The notes beneath the pieces are model-generated. The model ran no database searches. It had not been told where the DNA came from and saw nothing but the letters and a program-made list of their open reading frames with translations. A program made the position numbers and the translations under genes. From contig OX328109.1 in NCBI GenBank assembly GCA_946811185.2, positions 34,270,129 through 34,334,128 of the forward strand: 64,000 nucleotides of DNA. The letters are read 5' to 3'. This document shows positions 5,068-51,580 of the stretch, piece after piece (position 1 is the stretch's first letter; each line of letters starts with the position of its first letter). This DNA comes from Hippopus hippopus. Lineage: Eukaryota > Mollusca > Bivalvia > Cardiida > Cardiidae.

Positions 5068-6296
5068 TATTGTCCCCATTTGCTGCATTGATCGCTCGGC
5101 ACCTGGTCCTCACCGAAATGATTTAATTTCTGATATCATTTTGAGCCAGATTAGCACATACTGTATTTGTATGGCCCCATTTTACTACAATGACCGCCCG
5201 GCAGCTGGCCCTTTATTAAAATGTTGTGATTTCTGATATCATTTTGAGCCAGATTAGCACATACTGTATTTGTATGGCCCCATTTTACTACAATGACCGC
5301 CCGGCAGCTGGCCCTTTATTAAAATGTTGTGATTTCTGATATCATTTTGAGCCAGATTAGCACATTCTGTATTTGTATGGCCCCATTTTACTACAATGAC
5401 CGCCCGGCAGCTGGCCCTTTATTACATTGTTGTAATTTCTGCTATCATTTTGAGCCAGATTGGCACATACTGTATTTGTATGGCCCCATTTTACTACAAT
5501 GACCGCCCGGCAGCTGGCCCTTTATTAAAATGTTGTAATTTCTGATATCATTTTGAGCCAGATTAGCACATACTGTATTTGTATGGCCCCATTTTACTAC
5601 AATGACCGCCCGGCAGCTGGCCCTTTATTAAAATGTTGTAATTTCTGATATCATTTTGAGCCAGATTAGCACATTCTGTATTTGTATGGCCCCATTTTAC
5701 TACAATGACCGCCCGGCAGCTGGCCCTTTATTAAAATGTTGTAATTTCTGATATCATTTTGAGACAGATTAGCACATACTGTATTTGTATGGCCCCATTT
5801 TACTACAATGACCGCCCGGCAGCTGGCCCTTTATTAAAATGTTGTAATTTCTGATATCATTTTGAGCCAGATTAGCACATTCTGTATTTGTATGGCCCCA
5901 TTTTACTACAATGACCGCCCGGCAGCTGGCCCTTTATTAAAATGTTGTAATTTCTGATATCATTTTGAGCCAGATTAGCACATACTGTATTTGTATGGCC
6001 CCATTTTACTACAATGACCGCCCGGCAGCTGGCCCTTTATTAAAATGTTGTAATTTCTGATATCATTTTGAGACAGATTAGCACATTCTGTATTTGTATG
6101 GCCCCATTTTACTACAATGACCGCCCGGCAGCTGGCCCTTTATTAAAATGTTGTAATTTCTGATATCATTTTGAGCCAGATTAGCACATACTGTATTTGT
6201 ATGGCCCCATTTTACTACAATGACCGCCCGGCAGCTGGCCCTTTATTAAAATGTTGTAATTTCTGATATCATTTTGAGCCAGATTAGCACATTCAG
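5068..6296. repeat. 103-bp tandem repeat array, about 11.5 copies
   Basis: Direct repeats with a 103-bp period (for example, atgttgtgatttctgat starts at 5221 and 5324). Eleven copies contain tgaccgcccggcagctgg, and a diverged first copy lies at 5068-5130. The variants catACtgt and catTCtgt alternate in the right half, and a gagACag variant recurs exactly 309 bp apart (5761, 6070), so some copies spread as multi-unit blocks. Read on the minus strand, the unit begins with the last transposase codons of the neighbouring pseudogene, so the array grew from the 3' end of that gene. Confidence 0.95.
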
Positions 6297-7190: not shown

Positions 7191-7242
7191 TACTGGTTGT
7201 CCTAAAAAAGCGCTTTTGGAAAAAAGAGAAGTTAACCGTCAA

Positions 7243-7353
7243 TAGTAATGGTAGGGATAATAGCGACTGCAGCCGCTATTCTCCCTACCCTGAGTGGAAT
7301 TTTTTGGTGTTAAGTCGCTATTTTGCCTACCCCCGGGTAGGCAAAATAGCGAC
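7243..7353. repeat. Pair of palindromes, one of 40 bp perfect
   Basis: At 7314-7353 two perfect 19-bp arms (gtcgctattttgcctaccc and its complement) flank CC. Just before it (7243-7290) is a related imperfect palindrome built on ggtaggg..ataatagcgac..gctattctccctacc. A third relative (cctctaccc...gggtagagg) lies at 7629-7670. The sequence could extrude as cruciforms. It is the first unusual structure to the left of the small-gene cluster. Confidence 0.85.
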
Positions 7354-8091
7354 TAAATCGTGAAATTTCTCATTTTTGGGCACCACTTAGCCTTTAACTT
7401 ATGCGGAATACCTTGGTCCCTTGGTCTTCACCCAAACTGCAACATTTCGGATAAGTTGTGAAACGAATTCTACTTCCGGTTGTTCTACTTCCGGTTGTTC
7501 TACGGGAACTTAAGAAAGTCACTTGACCTCCTGGCAACCATGGAAACAAATTTGTCCACCCAGGTTACCTATCCGTGAAGTCTGATCTCGATCCACACTG
7601 TCTCAGAACAGAGGCTAGAGCTGGATTGATCCCTCTACCCTGAGTGGATTTCCCTATCCCGGGTAGAGGAACTGGGGAAAAATGTTTATTTTTCGTCTTT
7701 GACTAGTTTGACTATCTGAGGTAGGCTGTGGATCTTTAATCCCAAACGCAACATTTCGGATAAGTTGTGTCTAGCTGGCTTATTACTTTTTTCAAGGACC
7801 GTATTCACCAACAACTGTCTCAGATCAGAGGCTAGGGATGGTTTGGAGCGTCCCCAGACTTTCTGCTAGGGTTAGGATTGCTCTATTGTTTACTTTTTTA
7901 ACCACTACTTGGGCTTTAATTGGGCTTAGAGCAAGAAAAGACCAGGGTTTGGACTTAGTCTTTTTTTTTTTTGTATGGAATACAGTGTGATTTTTTGAGA
8001 GAGAAACTAGCGATCTGGACTTAGACTTTTTGAGTGTAACTCTTAGTGAAATTGACAAATTTGAAAGAAAGAACTTTCGTGGTGTTGGGTT

Positions 8092-8107
8092 AGCCCTGAA
8101 AAGGGCA
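8092..8107 (-). terminator. Histone-type 3' stem-loop of gene 1
   Basis: On the minus strand GCCCT-TTTC-AGGGC (5 bp, with a mismatched base pair at the foot), followed by (T)AACCCAACACC and then ACGAAAG. It lies 31 nt after the stop of the ORF at 8139-8756. Loop TTTC and the downstream CCCA match metazoan histone mRNA ends. Confidence 0.75.
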
Positions 8108-8138
8108 GTTTTTTCTGTCTTGGTATGTTTTTTCCCCT

Positions 8139-8756
8139 CTACTGACAGCTTTTCTTTGGTTTTTTCGGGATCTTGAAATCATCGAAGTCATCAATCTTTT
8201 TTCCATATTTGCCCTGACCCGTTATTGTCGAGATTGTCCAGTTGTTGAGAACTCCTTGTTTTTTGTGAAGTTGACTTTTGTCTTCCTCTGATTTTCTTTT
8301 TGTTGCTCTTGGTTGTTTTTCCTTTGACTGTTGATTTTCCTTTGGTTGTTTTTCTTTCCTTACAACAGTCACGATGGAGTCTACTAGTTTATGAAGACTG
8401 CTTTTATTAAAGTCAAACTCCACCGGAATTTTCACAGGAACAGGTGAAATACGCTTTCTCTGTTGCCATAATGTCTCAATGTTTCTGCCCAGTTGATTGG
8501 TGTTTGCGTTCAAAGTCTTTATCTCCTCCAAATGTTTGTTGAAAGTCTTCAGTTCTTCTAAAATACAAGTCAATAAAGAATCTTGTTTTGAATTCAACTG
8601 TCTTACTTCTTCAAAAATGTTGTCCAATACTGTCGTTGGTCTGATGAGTGTTGAATTTATCGCTGTCGATAGAATATCCCCATTGTTTTCTTTTGGTAGG
8701 AATTCGTTTATGTCGAAATCGTCTAAGTTGAAACCGTCTAAATTGAAATCCAGTTT
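8139..8756 (-). CDS. Cluster gene 1: coiled-coil, Lys-rich protein
   Basis: An open minus-strand frame of 205 codons runs from just after a stop at 8757-8759 to TGA at 8139. No ATG occurs in the first two thirds, so the start is unknown: a non-AUG start, a lost ATG, or an upstream exon are all possible. The N-terminal part is acidic with a repeated LDxFNLDDF-like pattern. Residues of about 45-110 form a heptad-type coiled coil (IFEEVRQLNSKQD onward). A highly basic Lys/Gln/Glu stretch (KEKQPKENQQSKEKQPR) then resembles a nuclear-localisation tail. A TATA-like box and shared promoter element lie upstream, and the histone-type stem-loop lies just downstream. I do not recognise the family. Confidence 0.55.
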   Translation of the reverse strand, partial: KLDFNLDGFNLDDFDINEFLPKENNGDILSTAINSTLIRPTTVLDNIFEEVRQLNSKQDSLLTCILEELKTFNKHLEEIKTLNANTNQLGRNIETLWQQRKRISPVPVKIPVEFDFNKSSLHKLVDSIVTVVRKEKQPKENQQSKEKQPRATKRKSEEDKSQLHKKQGVLNNWTISTITGQGKYGKKIDDFDDFKIPKKPKKSCQ

Positions 8757-8825
8757 TTAGCTAGCGCTTATCCGTACTACTCGAGAGCTGAGAGTCAAAT
8801 TATTAATGTGTAGGAAATTTTCACT

Positions 8826-8900
8826 GGCTTTTACACGTTTACGGGTGGATTGACCTACTTTGAGTCAGAATTAAGAGCGCGACCCAGGATGAAGGGGCTA
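8826..8900 (-). promoter_or_regulatory. Promoter of cluster gene 1
   Basis: On the minus strand TGACTCAAAGTAGGTCAATCC (8847-8867) contains a perfect AP-1 site (TGACTCA) and an AGGTCA half-site. A TATA-like TGTAAAAGCC lies at 8826-8837, about 10 bp downstream. The GC-rich block found upstream in other modules is reduced here to gcgcgacccagg. Confidence 0.6.
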
Positions 8901-9072
8901 AAGCTATGTGTTATTGAGTGTAACTCTTAGAGGAAGAAATGACAAAATTTGAAAGAATAATCTTTTTGAAATGTATTTGTTTTTAAAAATGACAACTTTT
9001 TAAAAAGAAAAGCTTACTCTTTTGGAGAAATTGACAAAAATTTGAAAAGATAGATCTTTCTTTGTGATGGGT

Positions 9073-9088
9073 AGCCCTGAAAAGGGCT
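9073..9088 (-). terminator. Histone-type 3' stem-loop of gene 2
   Basis: Perfect AGCCCT-TTTC-AGGGCT followed by ACCCA on the minus strand, with a purine stretch (agaaagatc) about 10 nt on. It lies 34 nt after the stop at 9122. Confidence 0.8.
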
Positions 9089-9121
9089 GTTTGTGCAGGC
9101 TAACTTTTCAATCTCCTCTCT

Positions 9122-9262
9122 TTAGCCTCCTCTCTTTATTTCCCTAGTTTCCATTACATTTAGTACCTGGATCAGATGCTCAACTTCATGCCTTATATGT
9201 CTAATACGTTCCCATTCTTCTACCCAGTTAAGCAATGTGAGGAAAATTGTTAATCCAAACAT
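9122..9262 (-). CDS. Cluster gene 2: 46-aa peptide with a hydrophobic start
   Basis: A short ATG-to-TAA frame of 46 codons lies directly upstream of a histone-type stem-loop, in the place an ORF occupies in the sister modules. The peptide has a hydrophobic first third (MFGLTIFLTLLNW, a possible membrane helix) followed by a charged amphipathic helix (EEWERIRHIRHEVEHL). No TATA/AP-1 unit of the usual type is obvious upstream (9263-9500), so it may be a remnant. Length and position are the main support. Confidence 0.4.
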   Translation of the reverse strand: MFGLTIFLTLLNWVEEWERIRHIRHEVEHLIQVLNVMETREIKRGG

Positions 9263-9513
9263 TGTGCTAGTTCGACTTAACTCTACGATAGTTGAGTGAC
9301 GAATGAGATTAACGGGATGAGTGAATGTGTTTTGTGAATGTTTTTTAGTCTACAGGGCTATGAATAGTGACTACGAAATATTTGAACTATGTTCACTGAG
9401 AAAAAAACGGAGGTTAGTGTTTACATAGAAAATGGTGTTGGACTTAGTCCTTTTTTGTCTAATTAGAGGAAATTGACAATTTTGAAAAGAAAGCTCTTTT
9501 CGTAGTGTTGGGT

Positions 9514-9529
9514 AGCCCTGAAAAGGGCT
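9514..9529 (-). terminator. Histone-type 3' stem-loop of gene 3
   Basis: Perfect AGCCCT-TTTC-AGGGCT then ACCCAACACTACGAAAAG on the minus strand, 30 nt after the stop of the ORF at 9560-9766. Confidence 0.82.
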
Positions 9530-9559
9530 ATTTGTATAGTCTTTTCTTGTCTGTTGAGA

Positions 9560-9766
9560 CTATTCCTGCACTGTATAAACCACCGGTCTGATCTCTTGCC
9601 AGCAATATTTGCACCAAACCCCTAGGTCTTCATCTTCATCATAAAATCCCTCATCTGGATTGGGACAATTGTGTTTTTGTCCAAGATACTGCAGGGGAAA
9701 TGTACATTTCCCACACTCAATATCGCATGCTTGAGCACACAGAGGGCAAAGAAGAATCTGAACCAT
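9560..9766 (-). CDS. Cluster gene 3: 68-aa Cys-rich zinc-binding-like protein
   Basis: An intact ATG-to-stop frame of 68 codons in good start context (aaccATGG). Eight Cys and one His fall into pairs: CPLC at residues 7-10, CxxxCxxC around 14-21, HNC near 32-34, and CKYC near 52-55. These could bind one or two zinc ions like a small zinc ribbon or treble clef. An acidic patch (YDEDEDLG) separates the halves. The gene has a TATA box, the AP-1-like element, a CCAAT box and a perfect stem-loop, so it is the least damaged module. No family match is known to me. Confidence 0.6.
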   Translation of the reverse strand: MVQILLCPLCAQACDIECGKCTFPLQYLGQKHNCPNPDEGFYDEDEDLGVWCKYCWQEIRPVVYTVQE

Positions 9767-9801
9767 GGTTGATCGATTATGATTTGGTGTATAAACATTG
9801 G

Positions 9802-9863
9802 CTTTTTATAGCTTGCAGAGTGGATTGACCTACTTTTGACTCAGAATTAACGTTATCCAATCA
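9802..9863 (-). promoter_or_regulatory. Promoter of cluster gene 3
   Basis: Minus strand order: CCAAT box (TGATTGG, 9857-9863), AACGTT, AP-1 element TGAGTCAAAAGTAGGTCAATCC (9822-9843), then TATA box GCTATAAAAAG (9802-9812), about 35 bp before the start codon. The order and spacing are those of an RNA polymerase II core promoter. Confidence 0.68.
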
Positions 9864-10202
9864 AAATGTTCGTTATATCTTTATAAGTTTTGATTGGAGA
9901 GATGGGATTTCTTAGGCAAAATTACTGTTGGACTTAGTCTGTTTGAGGAACGATTTTGTTCTTTGGGAAAAGATTTAGCTAGAGAGTTGTCGGTGGAGAC
10001 CTCTATTCCTCTGTCTTTTTTTTTTTTTCCACCTCCTCTGGTTCTCTGGCCATGGTTAAGGTTACCTTGTCTATCTATGATGGGATATTTTCTCAGGCAA
10101 AATGGAATTGGACCTAGTCTTTTTTTCGACTGTGTTTTTGGAGGGTTTCTCTTTTTAGAGAAAATTGACAATTTGAAAGATTGCTCTTTCTTAGTGTTGG
10201 GT

Positions 10203-10218
10203 AGCCCTGAAAAGGGCT
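10203..10218 (-). terminator. Histone-type 3' stem-loop of gene 4
   Basis: Perfect AGCCCT-TTTC-AGGGCT followed by ACCCAACAC on the minus strand, with an AAGAAAGAGC purine element next. Confidence 0.82.
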
Positions 10219-10256
10219 GTTTTGAAGAAATCAACTCGATTTATTCAGAGTCGGAC

Positions 10257-10556
10257 CTAATCGCTGAACAGCTCTCGGTGAAGTTCCTCCATCTGCTCAG
10301 ATTTACCACGGGCATACTCGTAGTACATATCGAGTGTTTCTTCAATAACTCAAACTTTTATCCGAAGGTAATAACAGAACAATCTGTTATTTGCACGTTC
10401 TGCCAACCCGTATTTTTTCTCTACCTCGTCTTGACGATGTTCTAGCAAGTGGATCTGCATAAAGGCTTCTAAATATTGTCGTTTGACAACATTCATCTTG
10501 GAACGTATCTCACGAGTTCTTGTCTTTAATTCTATCTCGAGAATTCTTGAATTCAT
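10257..10556 (-). pseudogene. Cluster gene 4: helical protein, paralogue of gene 6
   Basis: It starts at ATG 10554-10556 and reads 68 codons to an in-frame TGA (10350-10352). The same frame then continues for about 30 codons with clear similarity to cluster gene 6 (YYEYAxxK..Q..ELHRELFxD) to TAG at 10257-10259, where gene 6 has four more codons. The protein is nearly all helical and charged. Conserved blocks shared with gene 6 are YxxAERxNNRxFxYxLR and IExTxxMYYEYA. The stop and the altered end suggest a decayed copy. TGA readthrough cannot be excluded from sequence alone. Confidence 0.6.
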
Positions 10557-10609
10557 GATGATTCGATTTGGTTATCTAGTTGATAATAATTTTTCACGAT
10601 TGACTTGGA

Positions 10610-10712
10610 CTTTATATATTCTTGCATAGGGATTGACCTACTTTGACTCAGAATTAAGAGCGCGTTCCCGCGCGAAAGCACCCTCCCATGAATTAAGAGC
10701 GCGTTCCCGAGC
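10610..10712 (-). promoter_or_regulatory. Promoter of cluster gene 4, with E2F-like sites
   Basis: TATA-like AATATATAAAG (10610-10620), AP-1 element TGAGTCAAAGTAGGTCAATCC (10630-10650) and upstream TTTCGCGCGGGAA (10665-10677), which matches the E2F palindrome TTTSGCGCSAAA closely. A second, mutated copy (ttcccgagcgaaa, about 10700) arises from a tandem duplication of about 40 bp. E2F control would mean G1/S expression (inference). Confidence 0.65.
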
Positions 10713-11076
10713 GAAAGCACCCTATGAATTAAAAAAAAATATAGAATCGTATTCCTGAGATATAGACTTTTGTCAAACTTTTTTAGCTTGCCACAGAATT
10801 AACGTTTTGACCATTCAGAAGCTACGTTGCTTTAACGTTGACCAATCAGAAACTTCGTTATATTTTTTATTCGCCAGAGTTAAAAAAAAAAAAGCTAGAA
10901 AAACAAGATCGTGTTATGGACCGGAGTTGGACTTTTTTTTTTTTTTGGACTCATTTTTTGGTATGGAATACAGTGTTATTTTTTTGAGAAACTAGGGATC
11001 TGGACTTAGACTTTTTGGGTGTAGCTCTTAGAGAAATTGACAAATTTGAAAGAAAGAACTTTCGTGGTGGTAGGTT

Positions 11077-11092
11077 AGCCCTGAAAAGGGCT
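11077..11092 (-). terminator. Histone-type 3' stem-loop of gene 5
   Basis: Perfect AGCCCT-TTTC-AGGGCT with AACCTACC downstream (here the ACCCA flank has one change), then ACGAAAGTTC. It lies about 40 nt after the TAA at 11132-11134. Confidence 0.78.
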
Positions 11093-11131
11093 GTTTTTTC
11101 TGTTTTTTTCTGTCTTGGTATGTTTTTCCTT

Positions 11132-11449
11132 TTAGTGACAGCATCTAAAATTCGCCCGACAGATTGGACATGCACCAACTCTTCTTGTGATTGTTAATGC
11201 TCCACCATTATAAGTAACCTTCCTTCCGAATTCGACATCGACCAAAGTAACATCAGGAATTGACTGTAAATACAGTTCAAGTTATCACTCACCGAGATCT
11301 TTGTACGGTTGAGATACTCGATCTATCTGTCTTTTAATCTCCTGTATGTTATCTCCTTCTATGATCCTGTTGTTTAGTACCAACAGCTGTTCACCGGCAA
11401 TCAGATAGTCTTGGAGAGTCTCAACTAGTTGATTATTTATTTGTTCCAT
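11132..11449 (-). pseudogene. Cluster gene 5: coiled coil plus Cys-rich tail, double stop
   Basis: ATG at 11447-11449 opens 54 codons of amphipathic helix (MEQINNQLVETLQDY onward), ending in adjacent TGA-TAA (11285 region). The same frame then continues for about 47 codons to TAA at 11132 with a beta-rich segment and a Cys-rich end (CPICRANFRCCH). The tail resembles that of cluster gene 7 (CPACRKVGGCA), so the two halves were probably one protein. A GTGAGT...TTTACAG segment of 29 nt spans the stops but would shift the frame and is very short for an intron. Broken gene or a short real ORF with 3' remnant. Confidence 0.5.
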
Positions 11450-11518
11450 ATTGAAACTGTTTCCACACTGTTCGAGAGCTGATAGTCGAATGATTAATGT
11501 ATAGGAAAATTTCACTGG

Positions 11519-11590
11519 CTTTTATACGTTTACAGCTGGATTGACCTACTTTGAGTCAGAATGAAGAGCGCGACCCCGGTCGAAAGCACC
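11519..11590 (-). promoter_or_regulatory. Promoter of cluster gene 5
   Basis: Minus strand: TATA box CGTATAAAAG (11519-11528), AP-1 element TGACTCAAAGTAGGTCAATCC (11538-11558), and a GC-rich block gggtgctttcgaccggg upstream. It is closely similar to 8826-8900 and 13074-13140. Confidence 0.68.
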
Positions 11591-11779
11591 CCCGATGAAA
11601 GGGCTAAAGCTATGTGTTATTGAGTGTAACTCTTAGAGGAAGAAATGCCAAAATTTGAAAGAATAATCTTTTTGAAGTGTATTTGTTTTTTTAAAAATGA
11701 CAATTTTTAAAAAGAAAAGCTTAATCTTTTGGAGAAATCGACAAATTTGAAGAAAGATAGATCTTTCGTAGTGTTGGGT

Positions 11780-11795
11780 AGCCCTGAAAAGGCCT
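11780..11795 (-). terminator. Histone-type 3' stem-loop of gene 6, one mismatch
   Basis: AGGCCT-TTTC-AGGGCT then ACCCAACACTACGAAAGAT on the minus strand. One stem position is mispaired compared with the sister copies. It ends 22 nt from the ORF stop at 11818. Confidence 0.72.
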
Positions 11796-11817
11796 GTTTT
11801 GAAGAAATCACCTCGAA

Positions 11818-12057
11818 TTATTCAGAGTCAGACAAATCGTTGAACAGTTCCCGGTGAAGTTGGATAATCTGATCAGCTTTGGAATAGGCATATTCGTAAT
11901 ACATTTCAATTGTTCCTTCAATGACAGCAAGTTTCAGTCGAAGGTTATAGCGGAACGATCTGTTGTTTGTACGTTCTGCCATCTTGTACCGTTTCTTCAC
12001 CTCGGCTAGACGTTGCTCCAGCAAGACGATCTGACTGTAAACGTCGTTTAGCATCAT
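11818..12057 (-). CDS. Cluster gene 6: 79-aa helical protein
   Basis: An intact ATG-to-TAA frame of 79 codons, almost entirely charged helix. It shares IVLLEQRLAEVKKRYKMAER and the MYYEYA..K.DQIIQLHRELF block with the broken gene 4. An alternative upstream ATG at about 12100 aligns with the start of gene 4 but is out of frame after about 15 codons, which suggests a small deletion and a re-used internal start. The C-terminus is acidic (NDLSDSE). It is likely dimeric or a scaffold (inference from heptads). I know no family for it. Confidence 0.55.
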   Translation of the reverse strand: MMLNDVYSQIVLLEQRLAEVKKRYKMAERTNNRSFRYNLRLKLAVIEGTIEMYYEYAYSKADQIIQLHRELFNDLSDSE

Positions 12058-12152
12058 TTAAAGTGAAACGTTTGTCAAGAGTTCTTATTCTTGAAGGCAT
12101 GTTGATGATTTGGATATCTGGTTGATAATATTTTTTTACGATAGGTTCAGGG

Positions 12153-12215
12153 GTATATATATTCCTGCATAGGGGATTGAGTTACTTTTGATTCAGAATT
12201 AACGTTGTCCAATCA
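12153..12215 (-). promoter_or_regulatory. Promoter of cluster gene 6
   Basis: CCAAT box (TGATTGG, 12209-12215), AACGTT, a diverged AP-1 element (TGAATCAAAAGTAACTCAATCC, 12174-12195) and TATA-like AATATATATAC (12153-12163). It is the same arrangement as at 9802-9863 and 10610 onward. Confidence 0.62.
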
Positions 12216-12692
12216 AAAGGCTCGTTACATTTTTTATCCCAACCGAGTAAAGTATAGATGGATAAAATAAAGGGTAAAAAAAACAAGATCGTGTTATGGA
12301 TAGAGAACAATGGTTGGATAGAGATCAATGGTTGGAGTTAAGTCTTTTTTTTAACGATGGGGATTTTTTTTTACTGTTTTTTGAGAAGATGAGGATAGAA
12401 TGTCAATCTATGATAGGATTCCTTAGGCAAAAAATGGACATGGACCATAACCTATTTTTCTCAAGACTTTTTTTCAAAGGAAAACTGAGGGATAAATTGT
12501 CTATGAAAGGTTTCCTTAGGTAAAATCGTTATCGGACTTAGACTTTTTTTAGAGGGTGAGTGATAGGGATTACGATTTAGACTTTTTTTGAGGTAGAAAA
12601 CTGACGAATTGACTTAGTCTTTTTTTTTTTTTTTTTGGCTGGTTAGAAAAAAATTGACAAATTTGAAAGAAAGGTCTTCCGTGGTGTTGGGT

Positions 12693-12708
12693 AGCCCTGA
12701 AATGGGCT
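12693..12708 (-). terminator. Histone-type 3' stem-loop of gene 7, top pair changed
   Basis: AGCCC-ATTTCA-GGGCT followed by ACCCAACACCACGGAAG on the minus strand. One base at the top of the stem differs from the other copies. It lies 29 nt after the ORF stop at 12738. Confidence 0.72.
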
Positions 12709-12737
12709 GTTTTTTCTGTTTTTATGAGGTTGCATTT

Positions 12738-13043
12738 TTACGCACAACCTCCAACTTTCCTACAGGCTGGACAGCTACTCACTGTCCGCCTCCCCAGCTT
12801 CTTTAACTGCTGCTCGTCTAAGTCGAAGTGCAGCGAAAACGGTGGCTCGTCGTCGTCATCCCAGCACTCCGTCTCTGGGATGACGACCTTCTTATTGACT
12901 GGCGGCAGCGGTGTTGATGGTAGTCTTTCTTTTTCCTTCTCAACCATTGGCTTCTCGAGTTGGCCGTTTACCCTCTCTAATTTCAATGAGAGGGACGCTG
13001 CCACTCTCATTAAGTTTTGAACCGATTTTCTGAGTTCTCCCAT
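12738..13043 (-). CDS. Cluster gene 7: 101-aa coiled coil with CPxC tail
   Basis: An intact ATG-to-TAA frame of 101 codons. Residues 1-32 form an amphipathic helix. A Pro-rich linker (STPLPPVNKK) and an acidic WDDDDEPPF patch follow, and the C-terminus holds a Cys cluster (SSCPACRKVGGCA) that could bind metal. The design (helix, linker, CPxCR tail) matches the broken gene 5. GC content is visibly higher than in neighbouring modules, so it may have joined the array from another source or be under stronger constraint. Its own TATA promoter and stem-loop are present. Confidence 0.58.
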   Translation of the reverse strand: MGELRKSVQNLMRVAASLSLKLERVNGQLEKPMVEKEKERLPSTPLPPVNKKVVIPETECWDDDDEPPFSLHFDLDEQQLKKLGRRTVSSCPACRKVGGCA

Positions 13044-13073
13044 CGTTCAATTGAATAGGGAAAAATTTCGCTG

Positions 13074-13140
13074 CCTTTTATACGTTTACGGGTGGATTGA
13101 CCTCGTTTGGTTCTGAATTAAGAGCGCGTTCCTGCCCGAA
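13074..13140 (-). promoter_or_regulatory. Promoter of cluster gene 7
   Basis: TATA box CGTATAAAAGG (13074-13084), a diverged element AGAACCAAACGAGGTCAATCC (13094-13115, AP-1 half lost, AGGTCA kept) and upstream tttcgggcaggaacgcgc, a weakened E2F-like block. Confidence 0.6.
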
Positions 13141-13776
13141 AGCACCCCCATGAATTAAGGAAACGTATTCCTTAGGGGTGAATACGACCCGTGGAAAAAC
13201 ATAGACTTTTTTGTCAAAAGTCAATGTTGATTTTCACAAGTCAATGTCAATAAAATGTTTTTATTTAAAACTTTTGTACAATGAAACAAGACATGAACTC
13301 TGAAAAAAATAATGAAAACAATGGATTGAAAAAAAACAATGGATTGAAAAACAATATTATATCGACACATTTTTTTAAAACTTAAATCAATATTTTTGCA
13401 ACAGTTTTTAGTTGAAACATTTTTTAAAACTTAAAACAATTTTTCAACCAGTTTTTCCAAAAACACTTTTTTTGTTGACACATTTTTTCGACTCAATGTG
13501 TTTTTCTTTTTTTCTCCGGAATGTCAGATTCACATTCACTCTTACGTTTTTTCCCTTAATCATTGTTTTTTAATACCATATCTGGACAGATTTTATCCCC
13601 ATGTTTTTTGATTTGCAAAAGAAATAGTTCTTTTTCTATTGTTTTCACTGCTTTGCCGTTTCTCCTCTCTGGGTGAAAGAGCCTCCTCTGAAGAAAGTTC
13701 GTTGTTTTTTAGATCCAAAGTTTGTTGTTTTCTTAGATTATCGCTTGTAGATATTTTTTTTTCTCTTTCTGTTCTG

Positions 13777-14334
13777 TTATTTTACAGATCTCTGCATCGC
13801 TGATAGTCGTGTTGTCGATCTGCATATTTTCGATCTGATTTTCAACCGATATGTTGTAGCCTGTGGTGAGCTTGTTTTCCATTTATTTTCGTTGCAGAAT
13901 GACTTTAGAACACCAACAAAATTCATGTGCTGAAATTTAACACCAACTCCCATTGCTGGTGAAATTTTGATATCGTGACTGTGTGGATCCACGTAGACAA
14001 AAACGATTGTCCCTCTCTGCTTTTCTTTTTCTGGACATTGTCTGGCCCAATGTCCTGGTTTGTTGCATGTAAAACAAATATTTGTTCTCTTGCCATCCAC
14101 CCCATATCGTTTGTCGATGGTCGTTTGATCCAAAACTCTGTATCTGGTAATACGGTAAACATCTTTTTCTGTTAAATGTTGGTGGGATAAAAATGATCCC
14201 ACGTAGTTCCCGATATGTTGAACTTGATACTTTGACGGAATATTGCTGATCTCATAATCGTGGGTGTATGGGTTAACATACAGATACACCCTCTTTCTAA
14301 GTGGTGATGTACTTTGTAGCTTAAACTCGCTCAT
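13777..14334 (-). CDS. Cluster gene 8: 185-aa CCHC zinc-knuckle protein
   Basis: Intact from ATG 14332-14334 to stop. Residues of about 85-100 form a classical CCHC knuckle (CFTCNKPGHWARQC), as in retroviral nucleocapsids and many RNA-binding proteins. The flanks form an internal repeat: YLYVNPYTHDYEIS with QVQHIGNYVGSF before the knuckle, and FVYVDPHSHDIKIS with KFQHMNFVGVLKSF after it. Two copies of one beta-rich module therefore bracket the knuckle. The last 40 residues are basic. There is no histone-type stem-loop after it and the 3' flank (13190-13770) is very AT-rich. The pattern does not match gag proteins I know. Confidence 0.62.
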   Translation of the reverse strand: MSEFKLQSTSPLRKRVYLYVNPYTHDYEISNIPSKYQVQHIGNYVGSFLSHQHLTEKDVYRITRYRVLDQTTIDKRYGVDGKRTNICFTCNKPGHWARQCPEKEKQRGTIVFVYVDPHSHDIKISPAMGVGVKFQHMNFVGVLKSFCNENKWKTSSPQATTYRLKIRSKICRSTTRLSAMQRSVK

Positions 14335-14408
14335 TATTTTTTGTCAACTGTACTGTCTGAGGTCGATCAGAGGAATGATGTAGATTTCGTAGATTTCGTA
14401 GCTAACGT

Positions 14409-14447
14409 CTCTATTTATACATTATTGGGCTGAAAGGCTGTATAAAA
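14409..14447. promoter_or_regulatory. Divergent promoter pair
   Basis: Two TATA boxes face away from each other: GTATAAATAGAG on the minus strand (14409-14420), serving gene 8, and TATAAAA on the plus strand (14441-14447), 54 bp before the ATG at 14501. The arrangement suggests a bidirectional promoter at the head of the cluster. Confidence 0.6.
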
Positions 14448-14500
14448 TGTTAGGTTTTGACTTACCGTGTCATTGTCTGTCTTACAGTCAGACATAAACG

Positions 14501-14599
14501 ATGTCAAAAAGAAAAATAATAGTACCCTATTCAGACAGTGGAAGTGACGATGAGTCATTTCCACCATCAAAAAAGAAAAAATCGGAGTGTGCAGGCTGA
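14501..14599 (+). pseudogene. Cluster gene 9: truncated acidic/NLS N-terminus
   Basis: The only plus-strand gene of the cluster. ATG 14501 opens 32 codons: a basic start (MSKRK), an acidic Ser-rich stretch (YSDSGSDDESF), then PPSKKKK, a likely nuclear-localisation signal. The frame ends within sequence belonging to a family C MITE fragment that begins at about 14588, so the original coding sequence was cut there. The TATA box is at 14441. Confidence 0.5.
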
Positions 14600-27458: not shown

Positions 27459-28208
27459 GATAGTCTAAAAATTTGTTCCTACAATTGTCGTGGATTAAAT
27501 AATACAAAAAAAAAACGCGTTGACCTATTCAATCTTTTTAAGGAAAAAAATGTTGATATACTATGCTTACAAGAAACTCATTTCGTTGAAATGATAGAAA
27601 ACTGAATTTATTCGGAATGGGATGGGCAATGTTATTTCAGTAATGGTACCCATAATTGTAGAGGAGTAGCAATTTTGCCTAAAAAGAATGTTGATATCAA
27701 AATTGTTGAAAGCAAAAGAGACAACAATGGTCAATTTATCGCACTGAACTTATTGTACAATAATACACCATTTATTCTCGCAAACATATACGCACCAAAT
27801 ACAGACAACCCTATTTTTTTCGAAAATATCTTTCAACAAAAAGATTCTTTCGATAACATTGATGAGTATATCATTTGTGGGGACTTCAACTTAGTTCTTG
27901 ACCCAAACATTGACTATGAGAATTACAAATCATCCAATCATAATGTAAAATCTAGACAACTTTTGATATCAATTATAAGTGATAGAAACTTAACCGACCC
28001 TTTTAGACATTTAAATGGAAATTCCAGAAAATATACATGGAAAAGATTCAATCCTTTACAAAAAGGGAGACTAGATTTCTTCTTACTAACGCAAAATTTA
28101 ATACAATTCCTAAGATTCTGTGATATCGACATAAGTTATAAATCTGACCATTCTATTATAGTACTTGAGCTAAAACCAGACTCATGGGAAGAGTTATTGG
28201 AAATTTAA
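27459..28208 (+). pseudogene. LINE ORF2, apurinic-like endonuclease part
   Basis: Motifs in order: CSYNCRGLN (N-terminal Asn), LCLQETH (metal-binding Glu), ANIYAPN, IICGDFN, RLDFFL and YKSDHSI (catalytic His). All the main catalytic residues are visible. A TGA at 27603 breaks the frame after the QETH motif, and a frameshift at about 28195 separates this part from the reverse transcriptase, which follows one frame over. The enzyme would nick target DNA to prime reverse transcription. Confidence 0.85.
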
Positions 28209-31200
28209 CAACTCCCTTTTAAACGACATAGAATATATAAATTGTATAAATTCAAAAATTGATAATATTATTAAACAATATTGTTTGCCTATTTATAATA
28301 TCGAAAATGTGCTTCAAATTGATCGATCCGAGATTCAATTTGTAATTGAGGATCAACTTTTTTTGGAAACTCTTTTAATGGAAATTCGAGGTGAAACAAT
28401 ATCTTTTTCTAGCCATAAGAATAAATTAAAAGACTCCAAAGAAAACTATCTTCTTAACGAAATCAAAAAACTAGAATTAAACTTAGATGAAACTAATAAG
28501 GCCCAAGTGATTGAGTTAAAAAATGAACTAGAGGACTTCCGAAATAACAAAATGAAAGGTTTTTTCATTAGATCTAGAGCAAATTGGGTTGACAACGGTG
28601 AAAAATTTACCAAATATTTTTGCAACCTAGAAAAACAACACATTGCATCAAAGTCAATCCCTTTCTTAGAAAAAGAAGACGGTTCCCACAGTTTTGACCA
28701 AAGTGAAATACTTAATGAATTAAAAGCATATTACAAAAATCTATACTCTGAACAAGCTTGTGATAATGATTCTAATCTACAAAATGACTTAATGAATTGT
28801 AACACAATTAAACTAAACGAAGCTCAAAAAGATAGCATTGAAGGCTTATTACAATATCACGAAGTAGCAAATACTTTGAAAAATATGAAAAATGATAAAA
28901 GCCCTGGCATTGATGGTTTTACGACAGATTTTTATAAGGTATTTTGGGGTAAAATAGGAAAGTTTGTTGTAAGAGCTTTAAATCATGCTTTTTTAAATAA
29001 CTCCTTTTCTAAAAATATAAAATTAGGAACAATCATATGTATACCTAAGGAAAATAAACCAAAACAGTTTTTAAAAAATCTGAGACCCATTACTCTCTTG
29101 AACGTATTATACAATCTTGCTTCAGGCAGCATTGCAAATAGATTAAAGTCAGTTTTAAATCAAATCATATCAAAAGAACAAACTGGCTTTCTAAAAGATA
29201 GATTTATAGGCGAGAATACTAGATTAGTGTATGATATTATGCATCACTGTGATGAAAGAAATAAACCTGGTCTTTTAATGTTGATAGATTTTGTAAAAGC
29301 CTTTGATTCAATTTCTTTCAAGTTCATAGAAAAGACACTAGAGTTTTTTAACTTCGGTGAAACTTTTAAAAGATGGATTAAATTATTTTTATACAATACC
29401 GACGTTTGTGTACAATTAAATGGCTTTTTGTCAGAATATTTCACCGTAAAGAGAGCTTGTCGTCAAGGTGATCCAATTTTCGCGTATCTATTTATTCTAT
29501 GCACAGAAATTCTAAATATCAAATTAAAAAATAATGAAAATATCAAAGGTATACAACTACAAAATAAAGAATACTTAATCTCACAATTCGCTGATGATAC
29601 GACACTCTTCCTAGACGGCTCACAAAAGACGCTGAACAGTACTTTAGATTTATTACAAAATTTTTCACACATTTCAGGCCTTAAAATTAACTTTGACAAA
29701 ACAAAACTGATTTGGATTGGTAATATGAAGTATAGTACTCGCTCAATAAAAACTAAATGGAAATTATCATGGGGAGAAACCCAATTCAAGTTACTCGGTA
29801 TTTTATTCCACGTTGATCTAAAAGAAATGGTAAAATTAAACTTTGAACCAAAAGTACAAAGCATGAGTAACTGTATACGATATTGGAAAAAAAGAAAATT
29901 AACACCTTTTGGAAAAATAGCTGTAGTAAAAAGCATTCTAGTACCCATCTTAACTCACTTATTCATAAGTATTCCGTCTCCATCAAATAACTATTTAAAA
30001 AAAATTAGTGACATGTTATATAACTTTGTATCGGACGGAACGTGTAATAAAATTAAACAAAAAGTGCTAATTAAAGATTATGAAGAAGGCGGCTTAAAGA
30101 TGATTGACTTACTTAATTACAGCCTGAATATGAAAATTAAATGGATAAAAAAACTCATTTCCGATGGTAACAAAGACTGTTACGAATTTACCAACAATAT
30201 TTTCGATATTAATAAACTATTCAATTCTGGCAGAAAGTATTGTGAACAGCTCTGCAAAATGATAAAAAATGAATTCTGGAAAGACGTTTTATACTCACTT
30301 ATGAGGTATATGTCAAAATGTTATTTTACAAATTGGATAGAACTAATCAATATGCCTCTATTCTATGATGAAAACTTAATGATTGGCTCTAAGCACTTTT
30401 TTAATCACATTCTGTACAATGGTGGAATAAGGTATGTTAAAGACTTGTTAAATGAAGATGATAGCTTTAAAACCTTGAATGACATGAAAAATACCATTAA
30501 TAACGGAATCAACTTTTTAGATTTTTATAGCATTATCAGCGCTATTTAAGCCCTGTTTGCAAAACATAAGATCACTAACAAGAATAAGTCATTACAAGGT
30601 TTCCATAACCCAAATATAAACTGCTATTTTTATCAAATAATTATTAAGTCTTGTAGTAACAAATTCACATATAACGTTCTGATAAAGAATAACGAAAAAC
30701 CTACATGTCATAGTAAGTGGAACAGCACTTTTCCAAACTCTAATATTAATTGGAATGTTATACACAGTAATGTTTTTAAATATTCAAGTGACAGATACTC
30801 CCAATGGTTTCAAACAAGAATAATACACAGAATTCTTCCAACCAACTCGCTTCTTTTTAAAATGAACTTGGTCGAAACAAATATGTGTTCTTTTTGTAAC
30901 AGATGTGAAGAAACTATAGCACATTTATTTTATTAATGTCAAAATATTAAACCTATTTGGGAGCGCATTTCAATACTTGTTAATAATTTAGATCAGTTGA
31001 TGTCAATAAGCAAACAGAACGTGCTTTTGGGTTCAAATGAAACAAATCTGAAGCTAGACAGATTACTTCTTGAAACAAAAAAATATATTTACAAATGTAA
31101 AAACAAAGATATTAAACCATCTTTATTAGGCCTGAAAAATAGTCTCTTCTATAATCTTAGCATCATTAGAAGCTCAAAAAATTATGAAAATGAACGAAGG

Positions 31201-31242
31201 CTTACGACAATTGTAGAATACATCAGTCAAAACCTCCCATAA
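28209..31242 (+). pseudogene. LINE ORF2, reverse transcriptase and C-terminal part
   Basis: A long, mostly open frame (28285-30549 uninterrupted, 754 codons). Reverse transcriptase blocks are SPGIDGFTTDFYK, LRPITLLNVLYNL, LLMLIDFVKAFDSI (catalytic Asp), ACRQGDP, and FADDTTLFLDGS (catalytic Asp pair). The FADD form and overall layout fit the L1/Tx1 group. After a TAA at 30547 the same frame continues to 31242 with only one more stop (30934), and includes WFQTRIIHRILPTN and a C-terminal zinc motif CSFCNRCEETIAHLFY. Only a few lesions suggest a fairly young copy. Confidence 0.88.
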
Positions 31243-34046: not shown

Positions 34047-34480
34047 CTACTCAGACCTGGAGAGTGCATCTGCTATAACATTATCTCTACCCATTTTATG
34101 TTTCAGGTCGAGATTATACTCTTGAAGAAGGAGGCTCCACCGCAACAACCTCTGGTTTTTATTTTTCATTTTATGAAGAAAAGTGAGAGGGTTGTGATCG
34201 GTGAAGACAGAGCGAAAGAAGAGGATGAAACATACACTTAAAAAAATTGAAGAGAAAGAATAAGAGCAAAACACTCTTTTTCAATGGTGGAATACATTTT
34301 CTGGTGTTTATTAAATTAATGTGAAAAATAACAAACAGAATCATCAACACCATTTTCATCTTCTTGCAAAAGCACTCCCCCTGCACCAACGTCCCTAGTA
34401 TCAACAGCAAGTTTAAACGGTTAATAGAAATTTGGAGCCAAAAGCACCGGTGCACTTCTAAGCATGGCTTTGATATTCTC
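34047..34480 (-). pseudogene. RNase H region of copy 3
   Basis: Broken minus-strand frames. The end is clear: VFTDHNPLTFLHKMKNKNQ, LLRWSLLLQEYNLDLKHK, GRDNVIADALSR, the standard C-terminal RNase H motifs of Ty3/gypsy elements (catalytic Asp in TDHNPL). The upstream part with the first Asp and Glu has frameshifts. Confidence 0.8.
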
Positions 34481-35239
34481 AAAAGAATTTTGACAAACTT
34501 CAGTCCAAACGAGTTTATTATTTTTCTTTGAAAGATCAGTTAATGGAGCTGAAATAGAAGAAAAATTATCACGGAATTTTTTGTAATAACCAGACGTACC
34601 CAGAAAACGCATAAGTTGCTTCTTACTCGAAGGTACAGAAAAATCATTGATTGCTTGAATTTTTGCAGAAATAGGTTTCACCTGACCCTGCCTCACCACA
34701 TGTCCTAAAAAAGTTAATGTTCCATGACAGAATTCACTTTTGTTCAAATTTACTCTCAACTGATATTCCGAAAGTCTGTCGAAGAAAGATCGAATTTTGC
34801 AAAGATGTTCCTCGCAGGTGTTTCTGTAGATAATGACATCGTCGATGTAAGCTCCAACACCATCAAGTCCAGAAATAACCATGTTGACAAGACGTTGAAA
34901 TGTAGCAGGCAAATTTTTCATACCAAATGACATTACTTTGTACTGGAAAAGACCATCTGGAGTAAAGAAAGCGGAAATTTCTTTGGCTTTTTCAGTGAAA
35001 GGAATCTGCCAAAATCCCTTTAATAAGTCAAATTTTGAATGTCCAATTTTGTCAATACAGTCGTCAATTCTTGGAATTGGAAAAGTGTGCGTTTTGGTGA
35101 CATTATTGACTATCCGATAATTTGTACACATACGAAAGCTTCCATCAGATTTTGGAACCAAAAAGCAAGGAAACGACCCCTCACTTTTTGATGGCTCAAT
35201 AAAGCCATTTTCTAATAAATATTGTATTTGTTCCTTCAA
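34421..35239 (-). pseudogene. Reverse transcriptase of copy 3
   Basis: A 272-codon open frame. Motifs: CFLVPKSDGSFRMCTNYR, FDLLKGFWQIPF (catalytic Asp), FGMKNLPATFQRLVN, AYIDDVIIY (YxDD pair), then FLGHVV and the connection segment FLGTSGYYKKFRDNFS. This frame is uninterrupted, although three residues are missing before FDLLKG relative to the other copies. It is the best-preserved part of the element. Confidence 0.88.
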
Positions 35240-36417
35240 ATATTGTTGTTTGAAAGGATGTGTCCGATATGGATGTTATTTTATTGCTTTGGCATCACCA
35301 ATGTCCACATCATGAAAATTCTTGTTGGTTCTTGAAGGCACATCAGGAAACAAGTATTCACAAATAAATTCCTTGAGTTGTTGCTTTTGAAAATATTCTA
35401 AATGTCCCAGTTTCTAATCCAAGTCCTGAAGAATGTCCGAGTTTTAACATATTAATATGACATAATTGAGTATTCTTGCGTCTATCAGGTGTGCAAACTG
35501 CATAATTTAGATCACTATTTTTTTCCTGTATACTATAAGGACCAAAGTACTTTGCTTGCAGAGGCTTGCCAGGGACAGGTAAAAGAATTAAAACTTTGTC
35601 TCCCGGTTTGAAAAACCTGGATTTAGACTGTTTATCATGTCGTGTTTTTCATTTTTGTTTGAGTAAAGATTGTCCTCAGCAAGTTCACAAGCTTTAAATA
35701 GATATGTTTGATCCTAAAGTCAGAAACATAATTCAAAAGGTTTAAAGAAGTGTCATCTTCAGAGAGAAGTTTCTCTTTGTAGAATTTTAAAGGACCTCTT
35801 ATAGAATGTCCAAAAACTAATTCAAAAGGACTGGACCCAAGAGATTCCTAAACAGATTCTCTAACAGCAAACAATAAAAGATGAATTCCTTCATCCCAAT
35901 CTCTACCTTTTTGATGACAGTAGGTCTTTATCATGTTTTTAAGTGTTTGGTGATCTCTCTCATGAGCTCCTTGAATCTCTGGATGATAAGCAGAAGTCTT
36001 GTATCAATGAGTGTTTAACTCACAGATAACTTGTTGAAAAATACTAGACATAAAGTTAGAGCCCTGATGTGACTGGATAGATTTTGGTAGACAAACCAAA
36101 GTAGAAGACTTAATAAGGGCTTTGACAATTGTTTTGGCCTTAATATTCATTAAAGGTATAGCTTCAGGAAATCTTGTAGAAGTACACATAATAGTGAGCA
36201 AGTATTCATTCCCAGATTTAGATTTTGGTAAAGAACCAACGCAATCAATAAGAACTCTACTAAAAGGCTCTTCAAAAGCTGGAATAGGATGAAGAGGCGC
36301 GCGAGGAATTTTCTGATTTGGCTTGCCTACAACTTGGCAACTATGACATATCCTGCAAAACTTAGAAACATCCTTTTTCATGCATGGCAAAGAAAAAAAA
36401 AAAAAAAAATGACTAAG
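35240..36417 (-). pseudogene. Integrase core of copy 3
   Basis: The minus-strand frame 36004-36432 contains the zinc-finger Cys pair (FCRICHSC) and the core with LIDCVGSLPKSKSGNEYLL (first catalytic Asp kept) and SIQSHQGSNFMSS, where the second catalytic Asp is replaced by His. The remaining C-terminal part (35240-36000) is fragmented. The N-terminal zinc-binding half lies beyond an inserted transposon (40169 onward). Confidence 0.82.
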
Positions 36418-45834: not shown

Positions 45835-45992
45835 ATGCTCTCTCACCGCTGACCATTGTTTCGACGAATGTTATGTGGGAAAGCAGCCAGTGGCTTGGAA
45901 AGAATATTGTGCGGAGTATTGGTAAAAGAATCTCCAGGAAAGCATGGATAGGTGCACTGGCCGCAGCGATAAAACTGAAACAATGTATGTAA
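45835..45992 (+). mobile_element. SINE type 1, 3' fragment
   Basis: ctctctcaccgctgaccattg ... gtgcggagtattggtaaa ... gtgcactggccgcagcgataaaactgaaacaatg matches the 3' half of the copy at 59620-59892. It abuts the end of a Tc1 transposase pseudogene, so one inserted beside or into the other. Confidence 0.7.
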
Positions 45993-47009
45993 GAGTATGT
46001 GACCCGTTGCTATCAATGACAGCTTGATATCGTCTTTGCATGGCCCCAATTAGGTTTTGGATAACCATTTGTGGAATAGAATTCCATTCCTCGACAAGGA
46101 ATGCACCAAGTTGCTTCATACTTAATGGCTGGACCTGACAGGCCAAAATGTGGACCTGTAACTCATTCCACATGTGTTCAATTGGATTTAAGTCGGGGGA
46201 ACGGGATGGCCAATCCATACGCTGGATACCCTCCCATTGCAAGTACTCTTGGACAACATGGGCCGAATGAGGACGAGCACTATCGCCAATTAAAATGAAC
46301 CCATCGCCATCAGCACCCGCATACAACCTTACCTGTGTGTCGAGAATTTCATCTCGATACTGCTGGGCAGTCAATGTGCCTCGATCGAGCACATCCAGGC
46401 CAGTTCGTCCATCCCAGCTTATCCATGATAGAGCCGCCCCCATACCGACCATACTCAGCAATGTTTGCTGCATGAAACCTCTTCCCTGGCCTTCTCCACA
46501 CTTGAACATGCATATCCGTGTAGTCCAAGCAGTATCGAGACTCATCTGTAAAGAGGACAGGTCGCCAATCCATTCTCCTTCAACCAACATGGTCCATCGC
46601 CAAAGCAAACCGATGCTTACAGTGGTTTGTAGATAAGGGGGATACGAATACATGGTCTTCTCGATCGTAGGCCACTGTCGTGCAACCGTGTGCGTACGGT
46701 TTGAGCCGAAACTCTGACCCCAGAAGCATTTTGGACGTCAGAATGAGTTGCAGTCGCAAAACGGTTTCTCCGAGCCTGTATGACCAAATATCGATCATCA
46801 GCTGCAGATGTAGCCCTTCTACTGCCACAACCATTTCGCCTGATGGGTGAACCATACTGCTGGTACTTCGCCCAGGCTCTGGTAATAACAGTATGGTGCA
46901 CACCAAGTGCCTCACCAACCTCACGATGAAGAGCTCCTCATTCAAACATTCCATTTGCCCGCAACATGTCTGCATCTGATAAATGTCTTCTGACATTTGC
47001 ATTTGCCAT
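45993..47009 (-). pseudogene. Tc1-like transposase (decayed)
   Basis: ATG 47007-47009 starts MANANVRRHLSD. The HTH region reads GVHHTVITRAWAKYQQYGS. Then come VSAQTVRTRLHDSGLRSRRP and the catalytic regions VLFTDESRYCL (first Asp), LIGDSARPHSAHVV (second Asp; family DNARPH) and WPSRSPDLNPIEHMWNEL (Glu). The end is PQMVIQNLIGAMQRRYQAVI. All three acidic residues survive, but the frame shifts at about 46900, 46640 and 46570 and there is a stop near the N-terminus. No convincing inverted ends were found. It is a different Tc1 lineage from the remnant at 6.2-6.6 kb. Confidence 0.88.
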
Positions 47010-47477
47010 ATTAACATCAAAAACGTTCAGCCTTTCAAAAGAAAGTGAAGAATAAAGAGTGGTTACACAAGTTTGCTACATGTATGCAGTGTCACCAAAC
47101 ACTATGAAAAGTTGGGTATCTGCATTTGCAAGAACTTGCACAAGGAGTTTGCCTGAGATACAAGGCAATGCATGAACTGAGACCTTCTCGATACACCACT
47201 GAATGATTTCGAAAATAAACTTCACAAAAACATAGAAAACAGACTCTGCTTTGGTGCTAGGAAATCTTAGTGCTTAGCAAACTTTGAGTAGCATATGTTC
47301 TAAACTGTCTCAGCTATTCATTGTTGCAACTGAGCGATTATGTTTGATTGAATTTGTGTTTATTTATCGTCGCCATCGGTTGCCCATATGGGCAGCACCC
47401 CATAAAGGCTGTTAGTTTTGTTACGGGGGATAGTGCAAGATACATGACGAAACCCATTGTAAGTTTTTTAACGTGCT

Positions 47478-48231: not shown

Positions 48232-48362
48232 TGATCATCTGGTCATATTGGATACACTTTGATTATTTTGAACTTGTTACAGTATTAAAGTTTATTAGAT
48301 ACTAAAAAATAATAAAAAGATAAAATTTGATTTCTATTCTACTGAACCAGCAAAAAGCAATA

Positions 48363-49426
48363 ATGTCTTTTGATCTTGAAAAATTTATTGCTGAGCCCTC
48401 TCAGGAGTTGTTAAATTTCGCAAGAAAGTCTGATTTATTAGATCTTCCTTCTCATTATAAACTGACTGCCATTAAAGGTACTATGTTAAAGCATGAAATT
48501 AGGAATTCTATTGTTCAGTTTTTAGTTGATGAAGAAATACTTGACTCGTCTGCTCTGTCTTTTATTCTTGTGTCTCAGACAGACGTTAAAAATAATATTG
48601 ATTTAGAAAAATTAAAACTACAGATGGAAAAAGAAGAGAGATTACAGGAGAAAAAAATAAAATTAGAGCAAGAAGAAAGGATGAAAGAAAAAGAATTAGA
48701 GCAAGAAGAAAGGATGAAAGAAAAAGAATTAGAGTTAGAAAAAATGCATGTTGAAGAAAGACAGAAAGAAAGGCATTTTCAGTTGAGAATGAAAGAATTA
48801 GAAATAGAAAATAAAGAAAAACCATCTTTGCATATGATTAAAGATTTTGACATAACAAAACACCTCAGACTTGTTCCACCATTTCAAGAACAGGAAGTTG
48901 ATAAATATTTTTCACATTTTGAAAGATTTGCCGAAAATTTAAAGTGGCCAAAGAGCACTGGACCTTACTCTTGCAAAGCGTTGTAACTGGAAAGGCTCGT
49001 GATATTTTTTCTCAGCTAAGTAATGAACAGCTTTCTAATTAGGATAATGTTAAAGAATTGATTCTAAAGGCTTATGAATTGGTACCTGAAGCATATAGAC
49101 AAAAATTTAGGAATTGAAGAAAAGAAAATGGTCAAACCCATGTTGAATTTGCTAGAACTAAAGAACAATTATTTGATAGCTGGTGCCATTCAAAGAAAAT
49201 AGATTCAGATCATGGAAAACTTAGACAATTATTGTTAGTTGAAGAATTTAAAAGGTGCATTAATTCAGATATAAAAACTTTCTTAGATGAGAAAGAAGTT
49301 GAAACTTTAAAAGAAGCTGCTTGCCTAGCAGACAACTTTGCCTTGACCCATAAGGTCTCTTTTATAATTAAATCAAACCCTCGAAAACCTTTTTATTCAT
49401 CTACTGGTCCTAAAACCAAATTTTAA
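48363..49426 (+). pseudogene. gag of copy 1 with SCAN-like capsid
   Basis: ATG 48363 opens a frame to 48986: an N-terminal helical region, a long charged coiled coil (repeats of EEERMKEKELEQ type) and the start of a capsid domain (FQEQEVDKYFSHFERFAENL). After a frameshift at about 48965 it continues (LLLQSVVTGKARDIFSQL ... AYRQKF ... FLDEKEVETLKEAACLAD) with stops at about 49040 and 49117. This layout resembles the SCAN-type capsids of Gmr1-like elements. A decayed CCHC knuckle (CNHCKEPG) lies at about 49495. Confidence 0.8.
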
Positions 49427-51515: not shown

Positions 51516-51580
51516 ATGTAGTTTCCTCAGTCCCTCAAAATCAAAATCACATTAACCATGAAGACATAAATTGTGAAGAA

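Follow-up and report, generated by a model that had tools for sequence, protein, structure and literature searches.

Small genes of a Polinton-related element in Hippopus hippopus carry promoters and 3' ends like those of host histone genes and may be expressed like them

Introduction

Why should a run of small genes that encode no histone end in hairpins of the kind found on replication-dependent histone genes? The question is raised by a 64,000-nucleotide (nt) stretch of the genome of the bivalve Hippopus hippopus (contig OX328109.1, positions 34,270,129 to 34,334,128; hereafter the window), in which an initial annotation, made from the letters of the sequence, described an array of such genes and proposed that they form an S-phase-coupled, poly(A)-less set, possibly from a virus-like insertion. 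According to statements in two papers (PMC6303110; PMC10388802), no metazoan mRNAs other than those of replication-dependent histone genes are known to lack poly(A). Our comparisons, which are of sequence throughout, indicate that the array is probably a decayed arm of a multicopy, Polinton-related mobile element encoding a family B DNA polymerase (PolB), whose small genes have promoters and 3' ends resembling those of the host's histone genes and are likely expressed in the same manner.

Results

All seven minus-strand stem-loops of the initial annotation were recovered (at 8092, 9073, 9514, 10203, 11077, 11780 and 12693), against a mean of 0.34 and a maximum of 2 in 100 dinucleotide shuffles of the window. 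The stem that they were said to share, AGCCCT-TTTC-AGGGCT, is exact in four; those at 8092, 11780 and 12693 have one change each, breaking a pair. As had been described, most stems are followed by ACCCA (directly adjoining in 5/7, with AACCCA at 8092 and AACCTA at 11077), a purine element lies downstream in all seven, and each stem-loop is preceded by a small non-histone gene or the remnant of one. That purine element sits inside a second small predicted hairpin (GAAAGA...TCTTTC) in every window unit (8047-12708). When the seven blocks are aligned, 36 of the 41 invariant columns fall within or 3' of the stem-loop. Because the units are paralogous, derived by duplication, they do not represent seven independent events, and it is their conservation, not their number, that carries weight.

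Searching the window's own genome (1.07 Gb in 34 contigs, the window lying on C14) for the stem plus ACC with at most two mismatches gave 7,370 matches, versus 4 for the reversed pattern; these counts, together with the shuffles, rule out chance or a simple-repeat origin for the stem-loops. The match places listed are the first 100, all on contig C1, and the five element copies that we examined (A to E) all come from that contig. They span 14.0-15.5 kb (A 13,995 bp; B 15,530; C 15,402; D approximately 15,426, after trimming by eye to its AGTAGTA ends; E 15,012). In every one of the five we found inverted repeats, ends of AGTAGTA and a target duplication of 6 bp, with copy D read by eye. Copy B lies between a second inverted pair, 97.6% alike (C1:12501103-12501957 and 12518614-12519469; loci L062 and L063), perhaps another element hosting the insertion.

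The center of the element encodes a PolB (PF03175, DNA_pol_B_2, at 2.3e-37 and 3.1e-29 in Pfam), a protein of 217-218 amino acids (aa) and a CCHC protein, with stem-loop genes in both arms. Element copies elsewhere in the genome contain counterparts of all seven units of the window, of its CCHC gene and of the initial 29 PolB residues, so the window holds a truncated, decayed left arm of the element, which begins at approximately 7241, and not at 7960 as first annotated, and ends at 14599. The original proposal is partly supported: the sequence bears out that genes encoding no histone have 3' ends of histone type, and that the insertion is virus-like, here an element with PolB, inverted repeats and target duplications of 6 bp. 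Several of the window genes are broken. Unit 1 has no start codon, a stop interrupts each of units 4 and 5, and unit 6 is frame-shifted.

Polintons (Mavericks) are marked by 6-bp target duplications and AG...CT ends. The element shares with them the 6-bp duplications, AG ends, long inverted repeats, a family B polymerase and dispersed copies, and it falls within the 10-40 kb size range stated in a passage of PMC10175614. It differs from them in its accessory genes with histone-type promoters and ends, and in what is missing from the scanned open reading frames (ORFs): no retrovirus-like integrase was found by Pfam in 20 ORFs of copies A-C, nor was one apparent in the ORF lists of copies A-E, and no capsid, packaging ATPase or Ulp1-like protease was recognized in the same 20 ORFs, where very diverged capsids could escape detection. 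All ORFs longer than 300 aa in copies A-E read as PolB pieces. The element is a variant of the Polinton kind that departs from its definition in the integrase and the capsid set.

Not all element genes would take the histone route. The transcription units of PolB (with its downstream gene) and of the CCHC protein have no same-strand stem-loop and have AATAAA or ATTAAA within 500 nt in 7/7 ends examined; they are probably ordinary poly(A) genes. They also stand under a different TATA promoter, so that two promoter/terminator classes coexist in one element.

The comparison that the initial annotation could not make is with the host's own histone genes, which share the 3' signals and promoter boxes of the element and make the case stronger than its author could know. 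Host histone genes stand in a tandem cluster on C15, where H4 gave 58 matches. In one repeat unit (locus L060) a 6-bp stem-loop of GGCCCT or GGTCCT type (at 808, 2538, 3596, 4761 and 8279) closes all five genes, H1, H2A, H2B, H3 and H4. Each of the five also has a distal TGTCA, whose first base lies 31-35 nt 3' of the stem, farther out than the usual downstream element. A purine run of at least 5 lies between stem and TGTCA in H1, H2B, H3 and H4. For the element, we assembled 103 stem-loops (surveyed genome loci plus window), of which 13 are the first of a tandem pair. The 90 single or last stem-loops have the purine run in 90/90, TGTCA in 83/90 and TTGTCA in 75/90, versus TTGTCA in 1.1% of random stretches from the same kind of loci; in the 75 ends with TTGTCA, TGTCA starts 33-40 nt after the stem, most commonly at 37, a spacing similar to the host's. 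The distal TGTCA may be a further histone 3' signal. We had entertained the downstream block as a cis-encoded piece of U7, an idea dropped once the distal TGTCA was found in the host's histone genes.

Tandem double stem-loops occur at L042:1496-1858 and L045:7845-8207, three per locus, in the layout AGCTCT...AGAGCT, a spacer of AACC(C/T)(A/T)AC type, AGTCCT...AGGACT, and then a single purine element.

Likeness extends to the promoters. The 250 bases upstream of the five host histone genes gave 118 blastn hits at E <= 0.5 to element pieces, some counted twice because the pieces overlap one another, versus 4 hits in the 49 kb of remaining window used as control; hits at E < 0.05 came from the H4, H2B, H2A and H1 promoters. 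The long box shared with H4 is GAGGGTGCTTTCGCCC(A/G)GGAACGCGCT, with a similar box in H1 and H2B, and those shared with H2A are ATTGG...TTAATTCTG...AAAGTAGGTCAATCC...TATATAAA. The element pieces, 56.7 kb in all and partly overlapping, contain 34 instances of TCAATCC with TATA after it; the control contains none, and letter shuffles average 0.48. At six loci of copies A-C, 22 of 30 stem-loops have an ORF of at least 40 aa ending within 180 nt upstream, and 18 of these 22 genes have CAATCC 18-19 nt before TATA, copies in the two arms not being independent.

These observations bear on whether the hairpins are instead DNA features serving replication, recombination or packaging, unrelated to mRNA ends. 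Further palindromes do lie near the element termini, and modules recombine around unrelated genes, as such an account would have it; yet the hairpins lie on the coding strand, 3' of ORFs, and the same stem type, downstream motif and promoter boxes recur in host histone genes. We consider this account very unlikely.

Our alignment comprises 37 of the 73 distinct element ends, window unit 1 and the 5 host ends, with CTC-type first members of doubles omitted; 98.1% of its stem cells pair, and the second pair, said by the initial annotation to be G-C, is so in 43/43 aligned ends of element and host. For the pairing set (n = 103) we required AG...TTTC...CT and at least 5/6 pairs; the stem-loop at 8092 in the window, altered in its first letter, is thereby excluded. 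In this set 96 stems are fully paired (CCC/GGG 69, TCC/GGA 14, CTC/GAG 13) and 7 have one non-Watson-Crick pair. Leaving the two inner pairs free, we found 16,564 genome matches versus 277 for the reversed pattern; among the 100 matches listed (all on C1), both free pairs are Watson-Crick in 89, a G-U occurs in 9 and a mismatch in 2. The covariation score of the alignment is 0.142, versus 0.074 in shuffles (0/500 as high), by a statistic that ignores the kinship of the copies. The A-U to G-C change at the first pair stems wholly from the host rows. Judged from the counts of paired stems, the changes in the stem are mostly compensatory.

No histone family appeared in Pfam scans of the window and element proteins, in agreement with the initial annotation; only zf-CCHC and DNA_pol_B_2 reached the cut-off. 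In 13/13 comparisons of open frames between copies, the ratio of nonsynonymous to synonymous change (dN/dS) was 0.13-0.63. Database searches confirmed 44 relatives of the CCHC protein among 57 candidates, all with source 'ena', and 31 relatives of the units 4/6 protein among 33 candidates; for the unit 1 protein there were 0 among 137. In the PDB, sequence search matched only the zinc-knuckle part of the CCHC protein, whose structure model is unreliable (a mean confidence, pLDDT, of 38), and gave no match for protein P0046; the unit 6 protein, a predicted two-helix hairpin, had no PDB match at E <= 0.001. PHROGs returned two weak matches (E 0.03 and 0.07). A known exogenous virus was considered and set aside, as no relative of the CCHC, units 4/6 or unit 7 families was confirmed in IMG/VR; a search of exogenous viruses by stem returned 0 stretches with the exact stem and 5 contigs with the relaxed stem, one match each and no arrays. 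In prokaryote genomes, searched with units 4/6 only, no relative was confirmed.

Two further accounts can be weighed at this point. One is that the stem-loops, present in their thousands, serve as a decoy: by sequestering SLBP or U7 they would upset the histone supply of the host. The very high copy number speaks for it, as do the tandem doubles, several of which lack a clear ORF; the ORFs that precede stem-loops have promoters of their own, however, and the compared frames show dN/dS < 1, and we regard a decoy as highly improbable. The other takes the copies as relics of a single past capture of histone flanks, with signals carried along unused. It would fit the decayed window copy, but not the compensatory stem variants or the constraint on the compared frames, and it too strikes us as hardly credible.

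The features of the window remnant are collected in Table 1.

Table 1. The element remnant in the window: stem-loops, genes and promoters.
Feature	Position	Strand	Basis or remark
Element remnant, left terminus to truncated PolB start	7241..14599	.	terminus AATAGTAATGG vs AGTAGTAAAGG in intact-ended copy; gene homology
Unit 1 stem-loop (first base changed), purine element, distal TGTCA	8047..8107	-	
Unit 2 stem-loop, purine element, distal TGTCA	9028..9088	-	Rfam E 7.5e-5
Unit 3 stem-loop, purine element, distal TGTCA	9469..9529	-	Rfam E 2.3e-6
Unit 4 stem-loop, purine element, distal TGTCA	10158..10218	-	Rfam E 1.4e-5
Unit 5 stem-loop, purine element, distal TGTCA	11032..11092	-	
Unit 6 stem-loop (one pair broken), purine element, distal TGTC	11735..11795	-	
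Unit 7 stem-loop (closing pair broken), purine element, distal TGTCA	12648..12708	-	
Unit 1 gene, without start codon, relative of L036:3709-4302	8225..8753	-	tblastn
Unit 2 gene, 46 aa ORF	9122..9262	-	
Unit 3 gene, 68 aa ORF, Cys-rich, relative of L041:3277-3513	9560..9766	-	
Unit 4 gene, stop-interrupted, relative of L041:2628-2915	10260..10556	-	
Unit 5 gene, stop-interrupted, relative of L043:6433-6699	11135..11449	-	
Unit 6 gene, frame-shifted; family with 31 public protein relatives; predicted two-helix hairpin	11818..12100	-	
Unit 7 gene, open 101 aa ORF	12738..13043	-	
CCHC zinc-knuckle gene, C-terminal part broken	13502..14334	-	no same-strand stem-loop in relatives examined
DNA polymerase B ORF, truncated start	14501..14599	+	29 residues matching
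Unit 7 promoter: GGTGCTTTCG box, AGGTCAATCC, TATA	13076..13148	-	
Unit 5 promoter: GGTGCTTTCG box, AGGTCAATCC, TATA	11520..11592	-	
Unit 4 promoter: GGTGCTTTCG box, AGGTCAATCC, TATA	10612..10684	-	
Unit 3 promoter: AGGTCAATCC, TATA	9798..9850	-	
Unit 1 promoter, decayed TATA (GTAAAAG)	8829..8900	-	

Within the remnant, two pairs of control modules that flank units 1 and 5 are alike (8781-9092 and 11472-11799, 88%; 7966-8149 and 10954-11142, 86%), while the coding bodies of these two units are unrelated, which suggests that gene bodies are swapped between conserved control modules. A near-perfect palindrome (23-nt arms, 2-nt gap) lies at 7310-7357, near the element's left end. Elsewhere in the window, a 103-bp unit stands in tandem (11.4 copies, 5116-6292), and ORFs at 27606-31242, 34421-35275, 45871-47026 and 48324-52961 are, by eye, like those of long interspersed nuclear elements, Gypsy polyproteins and Tc1 transposases.

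Discussion

From the shared signals we infer SLBP- and U7-dependent processing, S-phase expression and an absence of poly(A) for the small genes of the element. The element would have taken, or come to copy, histone regulation from the host lineage. SLBP would bind the hairpin, and the U7 small nuclear ribonucleoprotein with its cleavage factors would cut 3' of it; the resulting mRNAs, lacking poly(A), would rise in S phase and be destroyed at its end. Accessory proteins would in this way be made during DNA replication, when the element's own polymerase can copy the element.

The strongest competitor for the same observations holds that the signals are real and histone-derived, but that transcripts read through and are mostly polyadenylated, histone-type processing being weak or lost. 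An AATAAA lies approximately 25 nt before stem-loop 4, C. elegans histone genes retain a poly(A) signal beside the hairpin (as stated in a passage of PMC1924863), and members of the unit 6 family turn up on numerous short, uncharacterized contigs in public data. On the other side, diverged copies have kept the pairing of the stem, the purine element, the distal motif and the distance to TATA, and we consider general read-through unlikely.

Several observations weigh against expression in the manner of histone genes. All window stem-loops score under the gathering cut-off of the Rfam Histone3 covariance model: the check proposed by the initial annotation gave 0/7 at 34 bits, although six of seven were listed at E <= 10 (2.3e-6, 1.4e-5, 7.5e-5, 0.07, 1.4 and 6.5), that at 12693 not being among them; of two distinct host histone ends scanned against the same cut-off, one scored 35.2 bits and the other, at 31.5 bits, also fell below it. 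At the first stem pair the element has A-U where the host has G-C, the host H2A end has only GAA at the position of the purine element, and the host H3 promoter had no element hit at E < 0.05. A clear ORF is lacking at several of the tandem stem-loops. Pairs changed on both sides occur in ordinary number (118/500 shuffles), and relatedness among copies is uncorrected in the covariation test. Ten of the 13 dN/dS values exceed 0.15, for frames that were picked for being open, a choice biased towards constraint. Finally, a U7 gene search gave no match, by a procedure that recovered none of its controls.

Set beside host replication-dependent histone genes, the element genes are alike in being small and intronless, in their promoter boxes and TATA, and in a 6-bp stem-loop with second pair G-C, a purine element and the distal TGTCA; they differ in encoding no histone, in being dispersed in a mobile element and in some tandem double stem-loops. 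Foreign DNA that exploits histone biology is familiar from bracoviruses, which carry a viral histone gene, e.g., histone H4. There it is the histone protein that is carried, whereas in this element it is the regulation only. A literature search for non-histone, viral or mobile-element genes with histone-type ends found none, most subscription journals being outside its coverage, and to our knowledge the gene-expression strategy of the element has no precedent.

On balance, we favor the broader view that PolB elements without a recognizable capsid or integrase have turned their accessory genes into histone look-alikes with S-phase, poly(A)-less mRNAs, which would be the first such non-histone class in metazoans. 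The comparison with the host also brings to light the distal TGTCA common to the five host histone genes. The rule that only histone mRNAs lack poly(A) would no longer stand, given thousands of gene ends that have all of the signals but belong to no histone gene. The element copies would offer natural experiments on which letters of hairpin, downstream region and promoter matter, and the TGTCA common to element and host histone genes is a testable candidate for a histone 3' processing signal. If this view is right, a mobile element can couple its genes to S phase by imitating the control of histone genes; it would be a parasite under the regulation of a histone locus, riding the S-phase histone factory of its host.

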